A stretch of 64,000 nucleotides of DNA from Acidobacteriota bacterium (GTDB lineage: Bacteria; Acidobacteriota; Vicinamibacteria; Vicinamibacterales; JAFNAJ01): contig JAHDVP010000007.1 of assembly GCA_023384575.1 (NCBI GenBank), positions 44,742-108,741 of the forward strand. Reading direction: 5' to 3'. Below, piece after piece: positions 437 to 31,143 of the stretch. Under the pieces are notes generated by a model. That model was not told where the DNA came from, ran no database searches, and was given only the letters and a program-made list of their open reading frames with translations. Made by a program: the position numbers and the translations under genes. The stretch's first letter is position 1; each line of letters begins with the position of its first letter.

Positions 437-1402
437 GTGCCCATGCGAGCCGGTCCGTTGTCGAGTGGGTCCGGCCGGAGGCCCGCCCTTCCCGGGATCA
501 CCCGATGCCGGGGGGCGTCGTGGCTGCTCGCGTTGGTGGTGCTCTCCGGCTGCAGCCAGGCCGTCCGCCTGCCTGTCGAGGACATGACGCTGGCGTTTGC
601 AGTACGCACAGCCATCGTCAACGACGCCGAGGTCGGCATGGCGCCCATCGAGGTGACCACGCGTGACGGTGTCGTGACGCTCGAAGGCCGCGTCGCGACG
701 TCCGGCGAGCGCGACCGGGTCGTGTCGCTGGCGCGGGGCGTGGCGGGCGTCCGACGGATCGACTCACGGATCACCCTCGGCGTGGCCGCGGAGAGCGGCG
801 AGCCGCCCGGATCGACCGCCACGCCCGCGCGGTCGGCCCTGCCGCCGGCCGATCCGTGGCCGCCGGGCCGGCACTTCGCCATCGGCGGCGCCGTCGAGGC
901 CTCGCGAATGCGCTCGGGCGCGCTCGACGGCACGTGGTCGCTCGGCCCCGTCTTCCGTTTCGGCCGCGGCTCCGGCGTGCGTCCGACGTTTGGCATCGCG
1001 CGGCTGCGCTCCGACCTCCCGCCGACGTCCGGCACCGGCGCGTTCGGATCGCTGCGGCAGGCCGTGGTCGTCGGAGGCGTGGCGTATGCGTTCACGGGTG
1101 AGCGCTGGTCGCTGCAGACCTCGCTCGCGGCCGGCTTCAGCTTCAATCACATCCGCCTCGACCCCGGCCCGGTCGTCCCGGCCGACGCCAGCCTGCCCGT
1201 GGCCGTCGACGGCAGCCTCGCGCTCGTACCGAGCGTGACGCTCTGGCGCGAAGTCTCGCGACGCGCCTCGGTGGGCGTGTCGACGGGGTACCTGATCACG
1301 CGCCCGAATGCGAGCTGGCTCGAGGGCGACCGGTTCGTCCGCCGGCGTCTGACCGCCGATGCGCTCGTCGTCGGGGTCAACGCGGCGTTCTGGGTGTTCT
1401 GA
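437..1402 (+). CDS. BON-domain outer-membrane lipoprotein, first gene of Mla operon
   Basis: About 320 residues. The start may be GTG at 437 or ATG at 443, two codons apart. An N-terminal signal region ends in a lipobox, LSGC, near residue 38, so the protein is probably a lipoprotein. Residues about 45-120 look like a BON domain: an amphipathic helix (TLAFAVRTAIVND) and then VTTRDGVVTLEGRV, a phospholipid-binding fold found in OsmY and DolP. The rest is rich in alternating hydrophobic residues and glycine (GGVAYAFTGERWSLQTSLAA) and ends in Phe, which suggests beta-strands at the outer membrane. Its TGA overlaps the ATG of mlaE, so it is translationally coupled to the phospholipid transporter and probably acts with it. 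A TACCTT box at 431-436 lies only 6 bases before the ATG. Confidence 0.75.
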   Translation: MPMRAGPLSSGSGRRPALPGITRCRGASWLLALVVLSGCSQAVRLPVEDMTLAFAVRTAIVNDAEVGMAPIEVTTRDGVVTLEGRVATSGERDRVVSLARGVAGVRRIDSRITLGVAAESGEPPGSTATPARSALPPADPWPPGRHFAIGGAVEASRMRSGALDGTWSLGPVFRFGRGSGVRPTFGIARLRSDLPPTSGTGAFGSLRQAVVVGGVAYAFTGERWSLQTSLAAGFSFNHIRLDPGPVVPADASLPVAVDGSLALVPSVTLWREVSRRASVGVSTGYLITRPNASWLEGDRFVRRRLTADALVVGVNAAFWVF

Positions 1403-2184
1403 TGGCGCCGCCGGTCACGAGCCGTCTCGTCCGCGCGCTGGCCGTCGTCGGCGACTTCTCCGCCTTCGCGGGCCGCGCTCTCGTCGACATCGTGCGTCCG
1501 CCGTTCGAGGGACGCGAGACGCTGCGGCAACTGGTGGAGCTCGGCTGGCGTTCGGTCCCCCTCATCGGCGCGTCGGGCTTCGCCGTCGGCATCGTGCTGT
1601 CGCTGCACACCCGAGCCTCGCTCGAGCGATTCGGCGCCGAGGCCCTGGTACCGGCGGGCCTCGGCATCGCGCTCATCCGCGAGACCGGCCCGCTCACGGC
1701 CGGCCTGCTGCTGGCCGGCCGGATGGGCGCCGGCATCGGCGCCGAGGTCGCGGCGATGAAGGTCACCGAGCAGGTCGACGCGCTCGAGGCCACGGCCGTC
1801 GACTCGTTCCGGTTCCTCGTGGTGACACGGGTCCTCGCGTGCATCATCGCGCTGCCGCTTCTGACGACCCTCATGAACTTCAGCGGGATCCTCGGGGGCT
1901 GGCTGGCCGAGTTCGCGATGACCGCCATGCCGCTCGGGCTGTACCTGGAACGCGCGTTCTCGATGATCGATTTCCCGCTCTACCTGCCGTCGACCGCCAA
2001 GACGGCCGTCTTCGGGTTCCTGATCGCCGTCACCGGCGCCTATCAGGGTCTCACCACTTCGGGCGGCACCGAGGGCGTGGGGCGCGCCGCGACGCGCAGC
2101 GTGGTGATGGCGTCGGTCCTGCTCATCGCGGCCAACGTGGTCCTCGTGCGCCTCATCTTCTTCCTCTTTCCGGAGGTGCAGTGA
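1402..2184 (+). CDS. mlaE: MlaE-type phospholipid ABC transporter permease
   Basis: 260 residues, the normal length for MlaE/TTG2B permeases. This is the inner-membrane subunit that moves phospholipids between the inner membrane and the MCE protein in Gram-negative cells. The conserved core is clear: GASGFAVGIVLSLHT, then RETGPLTAGLLLAGRMGAGIGAE and the coupling segment MKVTEQVDALEATAVDS. Five or so hydrophobic segments follow the family pattern, with a final one ending RLIFFLFPEVQ. ATG overlaps the upstream stop (TGATG) and its own stop overlaps the GTG of the ATPase gene, so the operon is tightly coupled. No mlaB or mlaC homologue lies in the cluster. Confidence 0.93.
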   Translation: MAPPVTSRLVRALAVVGDFSAFAGRALVDIVRPPFEGRETLRQLVELGWRSVPLIGASGFAVGIVLSLHTRASLERFGAEALVPAGLGIALIRETGPLTAGLLLAGRMGAGIGAEVAAMKVTEQVDALEATAVDSFRFLVVTRVLACIIALPLLTTLMNFSGILGGWLAEFAMTAMPLGLYLERAFSMIDFPLYLPSTAKTAVFGFLIAVTGAYQGLTTSGGTEGVGRAATRSVVMASVLLIAANVVLVRLIFFLFPEVQ

Positions 2185-2933
2185 ACGCGGCGCCGCCGGC
2201 CATCGCGCTCGAGCGCGTCAGCAAGGCCTTCGGCGATCTGAAGGTCCTCGACGAGGTGTCGCTCGAAGTGTCCGCCGGCAGTTGCTGCTGTGTGCTCGGG
2301 CGAAGCGGCACGGGCAAGAGCGTCATGCTGAAACACATCGTCGGGCTGATGGCACCCGATGCGGGGCGCGTCATCGTCGAAGGACACGATCTGGCCGCAC
2401 TCGACCGGCGCGCCCTGGCCCGTGCCCGCCTCCGCATCGGCTTCCTCTTCCAGAACGCCGCCCTGTTTGATTCGGTCACCGTCGGCGAGAACGTCGCCTT
2501 CCCGATGCGGAGGCACACCGATCTGTCCGATGCGGAGATCCGACGCCGCGCGCTCGAGAAGCTCGAGCAGGTCGGCCTCGGCGCGGCGTTCGACCAGATG
2601 CCCGCCGACCTGTCGGGCGGCATGAAGAAGCGCGCGGGCCTCGCGCGGGCGATGGCGCTCGATGCGCCGATCCTGCTCGTCGACGAGCCGAGCGCCGGGC
2701 TCGACCCGGTGACCTCGGCGGAGATCGACGAGCTGCTCGCCGGCCTGAAGCACCACGCCGGCACGACGCTCGTCGTCGTCACGCACAACATTCCGAGCGC
2801 GCGGGCGCTCGGCGACGAGCTGGTGTTCCTGCACCAGGGCCGCGTGCTCGAGCGCGGAACGGTCGAGGCCCTCGAGGCGAGCCCGCACGAGATCGTCGGC
2901 ACGTTCATGGCCTCGGCGGGCAGCACGGGCTGA
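2181..2933 (+). CDS. mlaF: MlaF-type phospholipid ABC transporter ATP-binding protein
   Basis: 250 residues starting at GTG 2181, preceded by GGAGG at 2172-2176 and overlapping the mlaE stop (GTGA). All ABC ATPase motifs are present: Walker A GRSGTGKS (residues 40-47), Q-loop FLFQNAALFDSVTV, the signature LSGGMKKR, Walker B ILLVDEP and the H-loop VVTHN. The signature in the form LSGGM followed by basic residues is typical of MlaF rather than of importers. It powers the MlaE permease on the cytoplasmic face. The reading frame is open upstream of 2181, but that part only shadows mlaE. Confidence 0.93.
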   Translation: MNAAPPAIALERVSKAFGDLKVLDEVSLEVSAGSCCCVLGRSGTGKSVMLKHIVGLMAPDAGRVIVEGHDLAALDRRALARARLRIGFLFQNAALFDSVTVGENVAFPMRRHTDLSDAEIRRRALEKLEQVGLGAAFDQMPADLSGGMKKRAGLARAMALDAPILLVDEPSAGLDPVTSAEIDELLAGLKHHAGTTLVVVTHNIPSARALGDELVFLHQGRVLERGTVEALEASPHEIVGTFMASAGSTG

Positions 2934-2958
2934 CGCGGCTGGCAGGCCAGGAGGCACG

Positions 2959-4320
2959 ATGCACGCACGTCAACAGACCGCCCGGGTCGGGGCCTTCGTG
3001 GCCGGGGGTTTGCTGCTCTTCGCGGTGGGGCTGTTCCTCATCGGCGACCGCCGCCTGCTCTTCGTCGACCACCAGGAGCTCGAGACGACACTGACGAAGG
3101 TGACGGGCCTGCAGGTGGGAACGCGCGTCCGGGTGGCGGGCATGAACGCGGGCGAGGTGACGGCCATCGACGTGCCTCCTCGGCCGTCGCTGCCCTTCGT
3201 CGTCCGCATGCGCATCCGCAGCGACCTGGCGCACCTCATCCGGACCGATTCGGCCGCTGGCGTGCAGACCGACGGGCTCGTCGGCAGCGCCTTCATCCAG
3301 ATCGGCCCGGGCAGCGACGAGGTGGCCCCGGTGGCGCCCGGCAGCCGCATCCGCGGTGTCGACCCGGTGGAGCTGGCCGACGTGCTGACAGAGACCCAGG
3401 CGACGCTGGCGTCGTTTCGCGCCTTCGTCGGCGAGATCTCCGACGAGGTGTCGGGCACGCTCGACAGCCTCACGAACACGGTGACGCAGGTGAACGAGGT
3501 CATCGACGAGGTCGGCACGAGCGTGAAGACGGTGACCGAGTCGACCAACCGCACGATCGCCGAGGGCGAACGCATCCTTCGTGAAGCTGGCGGACTCGTG
3601 GCGGACGTGCGGGGCGGGAAGGGCACGCTTGGCAAGCTGGTGACCGACGACGCGATGTACGACGAGCTCAAGACCGCCTCGACGCGGGTGGCCGAGAGTG
3701 TCGAGCAGGTGCGGGCGACCACGACCGAGACCCGGCAGCACGTCTCGCGGCTGTTCGGGCCCGGCGGCCCCACCGAGGCACTGCTCGACGACCTGCGCGG
3801 CGCGTCAGGGGCAGCCGAGGAAGTCCTGTCGGACCTCGCCGAACACACCGAGGCGTTCAAGCGGAACTTCCTGGTGCGAGGGTTCTTCCAGCGCCGCGGG
3901 TTCTACGACATCGACGCGCTCACGCCCCTCGAGTACCGACAGTTCTCCTCGGATCGCCGTCGGCGAACCGTCCTGCGCATCTGGCTCGACGCCGACGTGC
4001 TGTTTGCGACCGACGAGCGGGGCGAGGAACGGCTGACGACGGAGGGACGGGCCCGCCTCGACCTCGCCATGGGGACGTTCCTCGAGCAGCGTCGCGACAG
4101 CCCGCTCGTCATCGAGGGATACGCGATGGCGGGCTCGACCGCCGAGCAGTTCCTGCGGTCGGATGCGCGCGCCCGCCTGGTGCGCGCCCACGTCGCGCGG
4201 CGGTTCAGGCGCGAGGCGTCGATTACCGGCGCCATCGGTCTGGCGAGCGACGCGCAGGAGAGTCCGAGCGGCGACGCGCGCTGGGACGGCGTGGCGCTCG
4301 CGCTCATCGTGCCGCGGTGA
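2959..4320 (+). CDS. mlaD: MCE-domain MlaD-like protein with C-terminal OmpA-like domain
   Basis: 453 residues, much longer than MlaD of E. coli (about 180). Residues about 10-30 form one N-terminal membrane anchor (VGAFVAGGLLLFAVGLFLIG). An MCE domain follows at about 38-125 (TKVTGLQVGTRVRVAGMNAGEV, DGLVGSAFIQIGPG). Residues about 130-290 are helical and coiled-coil-like, rich in Thr, Glu and Val. The last 120 residues resemble an OmpA C-terminal domain: DADVLFATDERGEERLTTEGRARL in outline, VIEGYAMAG, then SDARARLVRAHVARRF. The key NRR motif of that fold is degenerate. The chain could reach from the inner membrane through the periplasm, with the tail near peptidoglycan or the outer membrane. 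It lies 25 bases after mlaF with GGAGG upstream. Confidence 0.82.
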   Translation: MHARQQTARVGAFVAGGLLLFAVGLFLIGDRRLLFVDHQELETTLTKVTGLQVGTRVRVAGMNAGEVTAIDVPPRPSLPFVVRMRIRSDLAHLIRTDSAAGVQTDGLVGSAFIQIGPGSDEVAPVAPGSRIRGVDPVELADVLTETQATLASFRAFVGEISDEVSGTLDSLTNTVTQVNEVIDEVGTSVKTVTESTNRTIAEGERILREAGGLVADVRGGKGTLGKLVTDDAMYDELKTASTRVAESVEQVRATTTETRQHVSRLFGPGGPTEALLDDLRGASGAAEEVLSDLAEHTEAFKRNFLVRGFFQRRGFYDIDALTPLEYRQFSSDRRRRTVLRIWLDADVLFATDERGEERLTTEGRARLDLAMGTFLEQRRDSPLVIEGYAMAGSTAEQFLRSDARARLVRAHVARRFRREASITGAIGLASDAQESPSGDARWDGVALALIVPR

Positions 4321-4390
4321 CGGCGCCGGCGTCCTTCCCGTCTGGCGGCTACCCCTCAGTCATCACCAACCGACGCCCTGGAGGACACCC

Positions 4391-5794
4391 ATGCCCCGGT
4401 CACGACGCGACTTCATCCGCACCATGGGCGTCGGCCTCGCCGCCGCCGGTGCCGCCGGCAGCCAGCTTGCGTGCGTTCCCGCCGGACGCGAGTCGTCCGA
4501 ACGGCTGCTCGTCGACAACCCGCACCACCCCGCGCCCGCACTGGTCGGCGTCGATCGCCTGCCGCTCGCGTGGTACCAGGCTGCCGCAGCGCGGCTCAAG
4601 GCGCGCGCCGCCGAGCGCGGGGTCGACGCGCTCCTCCTCCAGACCGACCACAACATCGTCTACTTCACCGGCTGCTTCCGCCAGAGCGGCCAGCGAACGA
4701 CGTGGGTGCTGTTCCCGCTGAGGGAGACCGACACGGTCTACTGGTACTCGCCGGGCATCGATCGCGATCTGATTCAGTCGTGGTGGTGCACGGAGAACGA
4801 GTACTACTTCTGCCTGCCCCATGCGGCCGGCGGGTACCCGAACCGGGGCGAGGTCGCGCGCGGGCAGCGTGTCGACATCTGGGAGTGGATGCTCGACGGG
4901 CTGAAGCGGCGGGGGCTCGACGGCAGGACGATCGGCATCGACGTCGAACTCACGCCGTCGCGCCTGAAGACGGCTGCGCGGGTGCTGCCCAGGGCCACGT
5001 TCGTCGACGTGGGCGACATCTGTCTCCGGCTGCGGATGATCAAGACGCCCGAGGAGATCGCGCTCATCCAGCGAGCCTATCGGTACTTCGATCGCATTCA
5101 TGCGTTCGCGCGCGACTACGTCCTCGAGCGGGGCACCGACGCCACCGACTACGAGGTCGGACAGGCGCTGGCGAACTTCGGCGTCGGCCTGCTGATGCAG
5201 GACGTGCAGCGCGACGGCAAGCCGCACAGCGCCGTCGGGATCGACGTGACCTCGCACTACGTGCGCACGGGCGTCGCCACCGCGTACCCCCACCCGAACC
5301 AGTTCTTCCACGCGAAGATCGAGCGCGGGCAGCCGCTCTACGTCAACTGCGACATCCTGCTCGGCGGCTTCGGCGGCGAGTGCTACCGCAACTACGTCGT
5401 CGCCCCCTGGAGCGCGCACCACGAGAAGATGTGGCAGGTCGTGGCCGAGACGGTGCAGATCATGGTCGAGGAAGCCGTGCCGGGACGTCTGTGCTCCGAG
5501 GTCGCCGAGAAGATCCACCGCCACCAGATCAGGAACGGTCTGCAGGAATGCATCTACCACAGGCCGGGACACGGGCAGGGACAGAACTACGAAGGTCACC
5601 AGCCGCCGTACATCGCGCTCGGCGACGACACCGTGATCGAGGAAGGGATGACGTTTTCCGTCGAACCCGGCCTGTACGACGAGTCGCGGGGCATCGGCGT
5701 CAACCCGAGCGACCGCCTGCTGGTGCTGAAGGATCGAGCGGTGCTGATGAGCCGCGTGCCCTTCTCGCGCGAGTGGAGCTTCATCGAGATCTGA
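4391..5794 (+). CDS. Tat-exported M24 (creatinase/aminopeptidase P) family protein with altered metal site
   Basis: 467 residues from ATG 4391, with GGAGG at 4380-4384. The N-terminus has a Tat signal, SRRDFIRTMGVGLAAAGAAG, with Cys soon after. A creatinase-like N-terminal domain occupies about 50-190 and the M24 pita-bread domain about 200-467. Five residues normally hold two metal ions (Asp, Asp, His, Glu, Glu). Aligned by eye, these are N319, E330, H394 (PGHGQGQ), E425 (FSVEPGLYDE) and D441. Three of five differ from the norm, so the protein may be a pseudoenzyme, bind one metal or use another reaction. The M24 homologue at 29779-31143 keeps the usual Asp pair. It probably acts in the periplasm. 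Alternative: a peptidase with an unusual metal site. Confidence 0.8.
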   Translation: MPRSRRDFIRTMGVGLAAAGAAGSQLACVPAGRESSERLLVDNPHHPAPALVGVDRLPLAWYQAAAARLKARAAERGVDALLLQTDHNIVYFTGCFRQSGQRTTWVLFPLRETDTVYWYSPGIDRDLIQSWWCTENEYYFCLPHAAGGYPNRGEVARGQRVDIWEWMLDGLKRRGLDGRTIGIDVELTPSRLKTAARVLPRATFVDVGDICLRLRMIKTPEEIALIQRAYRYFDRIHAFARDYVLERGTDATDYEVGQALANFGVGLLMQDVQRDGKPHSAVGIDVTSHYVRTGVATAYPHPNQFFHAKIERGQPLYVNCDILLGGFGGECYRNYVVAPWSAHHEKMWQVVAETVQIMVEEAVPGRLCSEVAEKIHRHQIRNGLQECIYHRPGHGQGQNYEGHQPPYIALGDDTVIEEGMTFSVEPGLYDESRGIGVNPSDRLLVLKDRAVLMSRVPFSREWSFIEI

Positions 5795-29778: not shown

Positions 29779-31143
29779 TCAGCGGATCGTCCAGAGCTCC
29801 GTCTGCGGTCCCGAGAGGTACTCGGTCCGGCCGTCGGGATGCACGAGCACGTCCTCCTCGCGCATCATCCGCACGGCCTGCCCGCCCCATTCCGGCACCG
29901 CAGTCGTCGTCGAGAACTCGAGCGAGATCCACTCGCCGCCGAGGAGGCGGAAGCGGGGATGGTCGCCGTAGCGCTCGGGCCAGTCGTGGATCATCCAGAC
30001 GCCGGCATCGTGCACCCAGTACCCCTGCACGTGCGAGTAGACGAGCACCTGCAGGCCCTCGGCGCTGGCCCGCGATTCGGCGGCGCGCTTGATCTCGATC
30101 CCGGTCCGGCCCGGCTTCATCTCCTCGAGCACGATCGCCGCCGCACGCTGCGACTCGGCGAACGCCTTCACGAGGCCGGCGGGCGGCGCCGTCTCGCCCT
30201 CCTTGAGCACGTACGCCATCTTCTGCTGGTCGGTGACGATGCCCGACAGCGTCACGCCGAAGTCCACGTGCAGCAGGTCTCCGCGCTCGACGACCGGATC
30301 GTCGGCATCGTCGAGCGAGAGGCCGTCCGGCCGCTGGAGGTCGAGCGACGCCGGGAAGTTGAACTCGAACCCCTGGATCTTGCGCTCGGCGGTGATCCAG
30401 TAGTGCAGGTCCATCAGGCGCGTGCGGCCGGGCGTGATGGCCTCGTTCGAGAAGGCGCGCCGGAGGATGTCGAAGGTGCCCCGGCTGGCCTCCCGGGCGA
30501 TGTCGTGCTCCTCCGCGGTGTGGACCGAGGCGTACTCGACGAGCAGCGGCTCGGACGAGGTGAGCTTCGCGGCGTGTTCCGGACCGATGGCGTCGACCAG
30601 GTAGTCGTTCAGCGAAACCGTCAGACCGTCGAACATGCTGATGGTGCGGGACCGGTTGACGGCAATGCGGCGGGGCCGGCGGTCGTCGACGTACCGCTTG
30701 AGGTGCGGCGCGAGTCCTTCTTCGCCGTAGTTCCGGATCGTGTCGTAGAAGCGCGAGAGATGGCCCGACAGGTGCGTGCCGAGCGCCGTGGTCTCGAGCG
30801 GGCGGTCCCCGCCCGGGTCGAAGAACAGGTAGGCGTTCCGGTGGCCGTACCAGCCGGTGACGCCGTGGCCGCCGAAGAGTGAGACGACCGGGTCGACGGC
30901 GTTCTCCCGGCTCATCACCACGAGGAGATCGACGCCGTGCTTGCGCATCAGCGGCAGGAGGTGCGCGCGCATCTTCTCGGACTTGACCCGCCACTCCCGC
31001 TCGTCGAGCGCGCGGATCCGCTCGGGCGTCACGACGGGCCGCGGCCCCTGCCCGAACGCCGTCGCCGCGAGGGTCGTGACCGCCATCGACACGATCAGAC
31101 CGGCGCGCGCCGCCCTTTCTAGCCCGCCCCTCCCTGCAGTCAT
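29779..31143 (-). CDS. Secreted M24 family metallopeptidase (Xaa-Pro type)
   Basis: 454 residues with AGGAGG before the ATG and a signal peptide (GLIVSMAVTTLAATAFGQG). A creatinase-like N-terminal domain (about 50-215) is followed by the M24 catalytic fold. The metal-binding Asp pair is intact: LLHVDFGVTLSGIVTDQQ, with the two Asp 11 residues apart. The later ligands sit in HVQGYWVHDAGVW (His), ISLEFSTTTAV (Glu) and MMREEDVLV (Glu). This is probably an active dinuclear-metal aminopeptidase of Xaa-Pro type or a related enzyme, outside the cytoplasm. It contrasts with the M24 homologue at 4391-5794, which lacks the Asp pair. It converges on the small secreted protein with a gap of 19 bases. Confidence 0.88.
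   Translation of the reverse strand: MTAGRGGLERAARAGLIVSMAVTTLAATAFGQGPRPVVTPERIRALDEREWRVKSEKMRAHLLPLMRKHGVDLLVVMSRENAVDPVVSLFGGHGVTGWYGHRNAYLFFDPGGDRPLETTALGTHLSGHLSRFYDTIRNYGEEGLAPHLKRYVDDRRPRRIAVNRSRTISMFDGLTVSLNDYLVDAIGPEHAAKLTSSEPLLVEYASVHTAEEHDIAREASRGTFDILRRAFSNEAITPGRTRLMDLHYWITAERKIQGFEFNFPASLDLQRPDGLSLDDADDPVVERGDLLHVDFGVTLSGIVTDQQKMAYVLKEGETAPPAGLVKAFAESQRAAAIVLEEMKPGRTGIEIKRAAESRASAEGLQVLVYSHVQGYWVHDAGVWMIHDWPERYGDHPRFRLLGGEWISLEFSTTTAVPEWGGQAVRMMREEDVLVHPDGRTEYLSGPQTELWTIR

Follow-up and report, generated by a model that had tools for sequence, protein, structure and literature searches.

Does a protein of the M24 superfamily in which several metal ligands have been replaced remain an enzyme, and if so, of which kind? 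The question is raised by a gene in the window, which is the whole 64,000-nucleotide stretch of DNA that was analysed. An earlier note, based on the letters of the DNA, had read the product as an M24 protein with Asn, Glu, His, Glu, and Asp in place of the canonical ligands Asp, Asp, His, Glu, and Glu. The gene at positions 4391–5794 of the forward strand is real, with an open frame of 467 residues, and so is its membership in the superfamily: the product scores 84.2 bits with the curated Pfam model of Peptidase_M24 (PF00557, cut-off 23) and 44.8 bits with that of Creatinase_N (PF01321, cut-off 22). The protein is far below the equivalog cut-off of each of the 13 NCBIfam models listed, the top scorer being PepQ with 61.9 bits relative to a cut-off of 630.

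The start of the protein is Tat-like, with the motif SRRDFI followed by a hydrophobic stretch, and R5 and R6 are invariant across 15 aligned family rows. The scores with the Tat models PF10518 (12.8 bits, cut-off 22.7) and TIGR01409 (15.1 bits, cut-off 16.7) are below the cut-offs. Export by the Tat pathway, as named in the earlier note, is suggested by the motif and its conservation, and the curated models do not reach their thresholds. The accompanying idea that the protein is folded with a cofactor before export carries little weight. Canonical five-ligand M24 proteins from the same phylum (L003, L004, and L030) also start with twin-arginine sequences; therefore, export says little about cofactors.

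The ligand register was determined with hhalign, which aligned a profile built from 68 members of the family with one built from 11 M24 proteins carrying the canonical residues (probability 100, E 3.4e-48). The alignment of the first two ligands is gap-free, with RGQPLYVNCDILLGGFGGECYRN placed over TGDLVVLDFGGVYGGYCVDLTRT. N319 pairs with the first Asp, D321 with a Gly, and E330 with the second Asp, with a spacing of 11 between N319 and E330, as had been proposed from an alignment by hand. The same register of N319 and E330 is obtained with hmmsearch against solved prolidases. D321, the nearby Asp that was named as able to overturn this reading, was ruled out as the first ligand at the level of sequence, because it faces the Gly and is not kept across the family. 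At the C-terminal end, GVNPSDRLLV is aligned over GVRLEDDVLV, which puts N438 over the Arg of the canonical R-x-E-D motif, S440 over the last Glu, and D441 over the following Asp, a residue invariant in all 11 canonical sequences aligned. S440 and D441 are placed in the same way by comparison with creatinase 1chm and with the solved prolidases 4fkc and 1wn1. Thus, D441 as the last ligand had to be abandoned, since both hhalign and hmmsearch show that this register was one residue off; the exchange of the Arg of 'RIED' for N438 had been missed. The ligand set of the query is N, E, H, E, S compared with D, D, H, E, E in the canonical proteins, and the full set of dinuclear M24 ligands is therefore absent (Table 1).

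Table 1 Features of the M24-like gene and its product, with positions in the window.
Feature	Position	Strand	Basis
M24-like protein gene	4391..5794	+	467 aa + stop; uninterrupted frame
N-terminal putative export signal, residues 1-28, twin Arg R5-R6	4391..4474	+	signal end estimated
Creatinase_N domain, residues 67-217	4589..5041	+	Pfam score
Peptidase_M24 (pita-bread) domain, residues 226-445	5066..5725	+	Pfam score, model, fold matches
H301, kept catalytic-type His of 'PH'	5291..5293	+	102/102 rows; hhalign
N319 at first-Asp ligand position (N/A/S/E in family)	5345..5347	+	hhalign, row counts
D321, off ligand positions; marks query subclade with N319 and N334	5351..5353	+	hhalign, row counts
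E330 at second-Asp (bridging) ligand position	5378..5380	+	102/102 rows; hhalign
H394, kept His ligand	5570..5572	+	102/102 rows; hhalign
H403, kept catalytic-type His	5597..5599	+	101/102 rows, one X
E425, kept Glu ligand	5663..5665	+	102/102 rows; hhalign
N438 replacing Arg of canonical R-x-E-D	5702..5704	+	102/102 rows; hhalign
S440 at last-Glu ligand position	5708..5710	+	100/102 S, 2 G; hmmsearch, hhalign
D441, Asp following last-Glu position	5711..5713	+	97/102 D, 5 N; hhalign

The five ligands of MetAP are D97, D108, H171, E204, and E235, and its conserved histidines are H79 and H178, according to one paper (PMC2238726); the five ligands are also given in another (PMC2807865). In this numbering, D97 and E235 are gone from the query, and D108 (as Glu), H171, E204, H79, and H178 remain. 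H301 presumably corresponds to H79 and H403 to H178. The division of the MetAP ligands between the metal sites M1 and M2 is likewise assumed here, with the kept acid and histidine positions taken to be those of M1.

The altered ligand pattern is a fixed trait of a family and not a quirk of a single protein. A scan of 84,980 species genomes identified 156 relatives, of which the best 80 of 156 were used. The family counts refer to 102 rows, 91 of them different, which are related sequences and not independent events; the query copy (L001) was counted once, and three proteins with split or cut frames (L020, L022, and L025) were left out of the rows and of the trees. According to the titles of the records, the rows belong to six phyla, Gemmatimonadota, Aminicenantes, Acidobacteriota, Bacteroidota, Marinimicrobia, and Pseudomonadota (including Sphingobium sp. 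SYK-6), or to five under the taxonomy of the query's phylum, inside which rows identical to those of Aminicenantes were counted. At E 1e-10, matches occur in 81 of 297 genomes from this phylum; among the matches listed, 24 exceed 270 bits and the rest have at most 75 bits, and these low-scoring matches are other M24 proteins where inspected.

Residues R102, H301, N303, Q304, E330, Y332, H394, E425, and N438 are identical in all 102 rows, with the constancy of H301, N303, Q304, and H394 inflated in the 80 rows of the scan, because these residues are contained in the patterns that seeded it (TAYPHPNQ, residues 297–304, and a pattern around YHRPGHGQG, 389–397). E330, H403, E425, N438, and S440 lie outside the seeding patterns, and the 22 rows found without peptide patterns agree on H301, E330, H394, H403, E425, and N438. 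The two ligands that had been described as remaining, H394 and E425, are thus kept throughout, and the two catalytic-type histidines expected near an M24 site are both present, H301 in every row and H403 in 101, the last row having an X. The family has lost the first Asp as well as the last Glu with its neighbouring Arg. Position 319 is Asn in 43 rows, Ala in 27, Ser in 23, and Glu in 9, and is never Asp; position 440 is Ser in 100 rows and Gly in two; the Arg has become Asn; and the second Asp is always Glu. The substitutions at 319 and 330 therefore recur in homologues, where the earlier note had advised looking for them. Asp occurs at position 321 in 46 rows, and at position 441 in 97 rows, with Asn in the other five. 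N319, D321, and N334 are found together in 43 rows. On inspection, these rows make up the clade of 43 (support 100) to which the query belongs, and the co-occurrence suggests that the site was rearranged locally a second time. The dN/dS ratios are 0.02–0.25 in eight of eight pairs, calculated from whole open frames that include some codons upstream of the start, with one saturated dS (1.9). As far as can be read from sequences, the change of the metal site surmised earlier is well supported, since substitutions at three of the five ligand positions are fixed family-wide.

The AlphaFold2 model, calculated from 68 sequences, has a mean pLDDT of 90.1 and a pTM of 0.88, with residues 1–31 below 50; structure prediction, suggested earlier as a check, thus gives a confident pita-bread fold. 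The top five fold matches comprise three creatinases and one prolidase with two entries (Z 36.0–37.2, rmsd 2.8–3.6, 364–380 residues aligned), and among the matches listed the model appears closest to working enzymes. The family resembles prolidase, PepQ, and APP in the two-domain pita-bread fold (Z 32.5–37.2 for prolidases and about 27.5 for E. coli APP), in the succession of Creatinase_N and M24 domains, and in the kept His, Glu, and both catalytic-type histidines. By contrast, the five ligand positions are D-D-H-E-E in these enzymes and N/A/S/E-E-H-E-S in the family, the Arg of R-x-E-D is replaced by Asn, and the family has one extra residue after 'PH' (PHPNQ).

Half of the metal site has been erased, yet what is left of the active site is strictly conserved; therefore, the protein probably still performs chemistry, but in a different way. 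The retention of the E-H-E trio and both histidines, together with the loss of the equivalents of D97 and E235, favours a single-metal site. The leading interpretation, offered tentatively, is that the protein represents an exported, uncharacterised M24 subfamily with half of the two-metal site erased, which may function as a one-metal hydrolase. E330, H394, and E425 would hold a single divalent metal ion at the M1 position, and this ion would activate a water molecule with the help of E425, H301, and H403. The substrate might be a small peptide-like or amide compound located outside the cytoplasm. It is conceivable, at somewhat less than even chances, that a one-metal M24 enzyme has arisen here in nature: in a broad family of exported hydrolases, evolution would have removed the M2 half of the site and fixed the M1 half (Glu-His-Glu) across several phyla. 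The number of metal ions needed by M24 enzymes of the MetAP kind is described as 'under intense debate' in one paper (PMC2807865). If the M2 site was lost by descent and the rest was kept, this question could be addressed with a natural protein instead of a mutant. The family is of considerable size, and automatic annotation would probably name its members metallopeptidases despite the incomplete set of metal ligands.

Several observations speak against one metal ion. Tight binding would have to rely on only three side chains, a bridging Glu is gone, and the replacement of Asp by Glu makes one ligand longer. Creatinase, too, retains the His and the fourth-position Glu, so their presence is no proof of a metal. 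In our judgement of the sequences, the single-metal enzyme ranks first, followed by a metal-free enzyme resembling creatinase, a protein without catalysis, and, last, a two-metal enzyme with compensating ligands.

A metal-free C–N hydrolase resembling creatinase is the less probable second choice. E330 and E425 would then hold the cationic group of the substrate, H301 would pass the proton, and the carboxylate would be held by R102 of the partner subunit. Neither creatinase nor ectoine hydrolase is known to use a metal. Creatinases (1chm, 1kp0, and 7yto) share the fold of the model (Z 36.0–36.5) and have the top query TM-scores, 0.67–0.72, among the 50 Foldseek matches listed, and creatinase is the best match of the single sequence among solved structures (1.9e-18). 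Common to creatinase and the query, which are 20–24% identical, are Asn at the first position, the kept His and fourth-position Glu, and the lack of an acid at the last position. In the 1chm alignment, H301 is the equivalent of the catalytic His of creatinase (H232, in 'GAH') and E425 that of Glu358. R102 would fall on Arg64 if this alignment were extended by seven residues without a gap, and E330 is two residues from the place of E262 and hence probably on the same face of the strand. The residue role of Arg64 and the functional roles of H232, Glu358, Glu262, Arg335, and His376 in creatinase are taken here as assumed. However, E262, R335, and H376 of creatinase have no equivalents, the residues of the query being Y332, H403, and S440, and R102 is part of an S-x-E-R stretch that is common in canonical M24 proteins too. 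The five positions of creatinase are N-A-H-E-H, with Ala where the family has E330, so that an invariant Glu at the position of the second Asp is foreign to it. Furthermore, the search of solved structures with the family profile ranks prolidases first (4fkc, 7.4e-28) and creatinase eighth (2e-24), and in the tree described below creatinase, on a long branch, falls at low support with ectoine hydrolase instead of with the family.

The ectoine hydrolases DoeA and EutD have the fold of the model (Z 33.9–34.2) and also depart from the canonical ligands. Unlike the family, they have E-P-Y-T/S-T at the five positions in a MAFFT alignment, and the score of the query with the ectoine hydrolase model TIGR02993 is 34.3 bits relative to a cut-off of 613. 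Membership of the query among creatinases or ectoine hydrolases was ruled out from residues and score. The position of the second Asp is non-acidic in both, with Ala in creatinase and Pro in ectoine hydrolase, which is in line with the one-metal reading of the family. The DMSP lyase DddP, compared at the level of fold, is another M24 fold with non-peptidase chemistry; it is present at ranks 45–48 in the Foldseek list only, and its absence from the VIA-align list is uninformative. DddP keeps the M24 metal ligands and has an extra Asp297, which makes six ligands, and it contains two metal ions, modelled as iron, according to its description (PMC4108388).

It is unlikely that the protein is a pseudoenzyme, that is, a periplasmic protein with a binding, chaperone-like, or regulatory function, like eukaryotic EBP1 and Spt16. 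Three of the five ligands are replaced, the N-domains of Spt16 are fold relatives (Z 27–29), and EBP1 retains two of the five ligands, according to one paper (PMC11266112). However, H301, E330, H394, H403, and E425 are the same in 101–102 of the 102 rows, unlike what relaxed catalysis would leave, and most loci lack one constant adjoining partner gene. This constancy and the low dN/dS ratios make a pure binding protein, the other possibility raised in the earlier note, less likely than a working enzyme. It is improbable that the protein is an M24 enzyme of the ordinary two-metal kind, with D321 and D441 substituting for the missing ligands. Position 321 is Asp in fewer than half of the rows, in a site that is otherwise invariant, and D441 is the Asp that canonical enzymes already carry besides the Glu. 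In favour of this reading, D321 accompanies N319 and N334 in the subclade of the query, D441 is widely kept, and an extra Asp near the first ligand, in the D-x-D pair Asp295 and Asp297, binds metal in DddP (PMC4108388).

The genome of the query encodes 11 M24 proteins, and each of the ten besides the query retains both the first and the second ligand Asp; one of these (L158) is cut by a contig end before the later ligands. A tree of 112 rows was calculated by a quick method; 101 of the rows are different, and the duplicates are family members present in two collections. In this tree, the 102 family rows form a single clade with a support of 100 and a long stem. Two proteins from the same phylum, L026 and L029, have Gly, Glu, His, Glu, and Ile at the five positions and thus the same E-H-E trio as the family, a further point for the one-metal reading. 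In a more careful tree of 45 rows they are sisters of the family (96/97), separate from ectoine hydrolases and canonical proteins; two long branches meet in this join, and the program issued a warning about it. In a tree of the M24 domain only, with creatinase included, L026 and L029 join without resolution, and creatinase, on a long branch, falls with the ectoine hydrolase EutD at low support (80/38). The loss of the canonical site in the family probably occurred separately from that in EutD and perhaps separately from that in creatinase; it may be shared with L026 and L029. A search for the lineage of the latter at E 1e-60 matched one of 199 genomes of the phylum, which is the source of the query protein of that search. 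A second M24 protein in the window (L156, positions 29842–30498 on the reverse strand, G000:C7:74583-75239) scores 43 bits and has Asp at the first two positions.

In the order of the host, three of 149 genomes have a match to the protein at E 1e-40, including the query's own, and the other two proteins are 39–46% identical to the query; three other genomes of the same family of bacteria contain no match above 26%. The MCE gene located directly upstream is present in 34 of 100 genomes of the order and is 69% identical in the sole genome of the same family that has it. DNA similarity to this relative covers positions 581 to 4322; its limit coincides with the end of the MCE gene and immediately precedes the M24-like gene, and the contig of the relative runs only 1.1 kb past this limit. 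The query is the sister of 16 Gemmatimonadota rows in the 112-row tree (17-row clade, support 97). The simplest reading is a horizontal gain of the query gene, with Gemmatimonadota as the nearest relatives. The M24-like gene and the MCE gene have the same GC3 of 0.91; therefore, any gain was by that sign not recent, or came from a genome of like composition. Plasmid carriage was rejected: the protein has matches in 377 plasmid records, all below 60% identity, and there is one DNA match of 108 bases, in a Gemmatirosa record. The interval 4322–4391, directly upstream of the M24-like gene, is a breakpoint at which the similarity to the Mla-type operon of the nearest relative ends.

A search of the literature, judged by titles and the starts of abstracts and with subscription papers mostly out of reach, yielded no description recognised as that of the family. 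The commonest clusters of neighbours within 10 kb are of the S9-peptidase type (16 of 81 regions) and the MacB type (10 of 81), counted without a control. Single loci have S9, M1, and M20 peptidases, amidohydrolases, TonB receptors, and an ornithine cyclodeaminase as neighbours. Amidohydrolases occur in 19 of 80 family loci and in 4 of 20 control regions, which is no enrichment in a comparison where one control (L168) is near a family locus and many family flanks are shorter than the controls. The gene neighbourhood was dropped as a guide to the substrate, since the neighbours are mixed and point to no clear compound. In L036, an asparaginase-like gene, read from its sequence alone, is a neighbour of the family gene. 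Another kind of M24 protein is encoded within about 8 kb in four of the 80 family loci (L036, L068, L092, and L110), and in L068 its gene is located directly upstream of the family gene.
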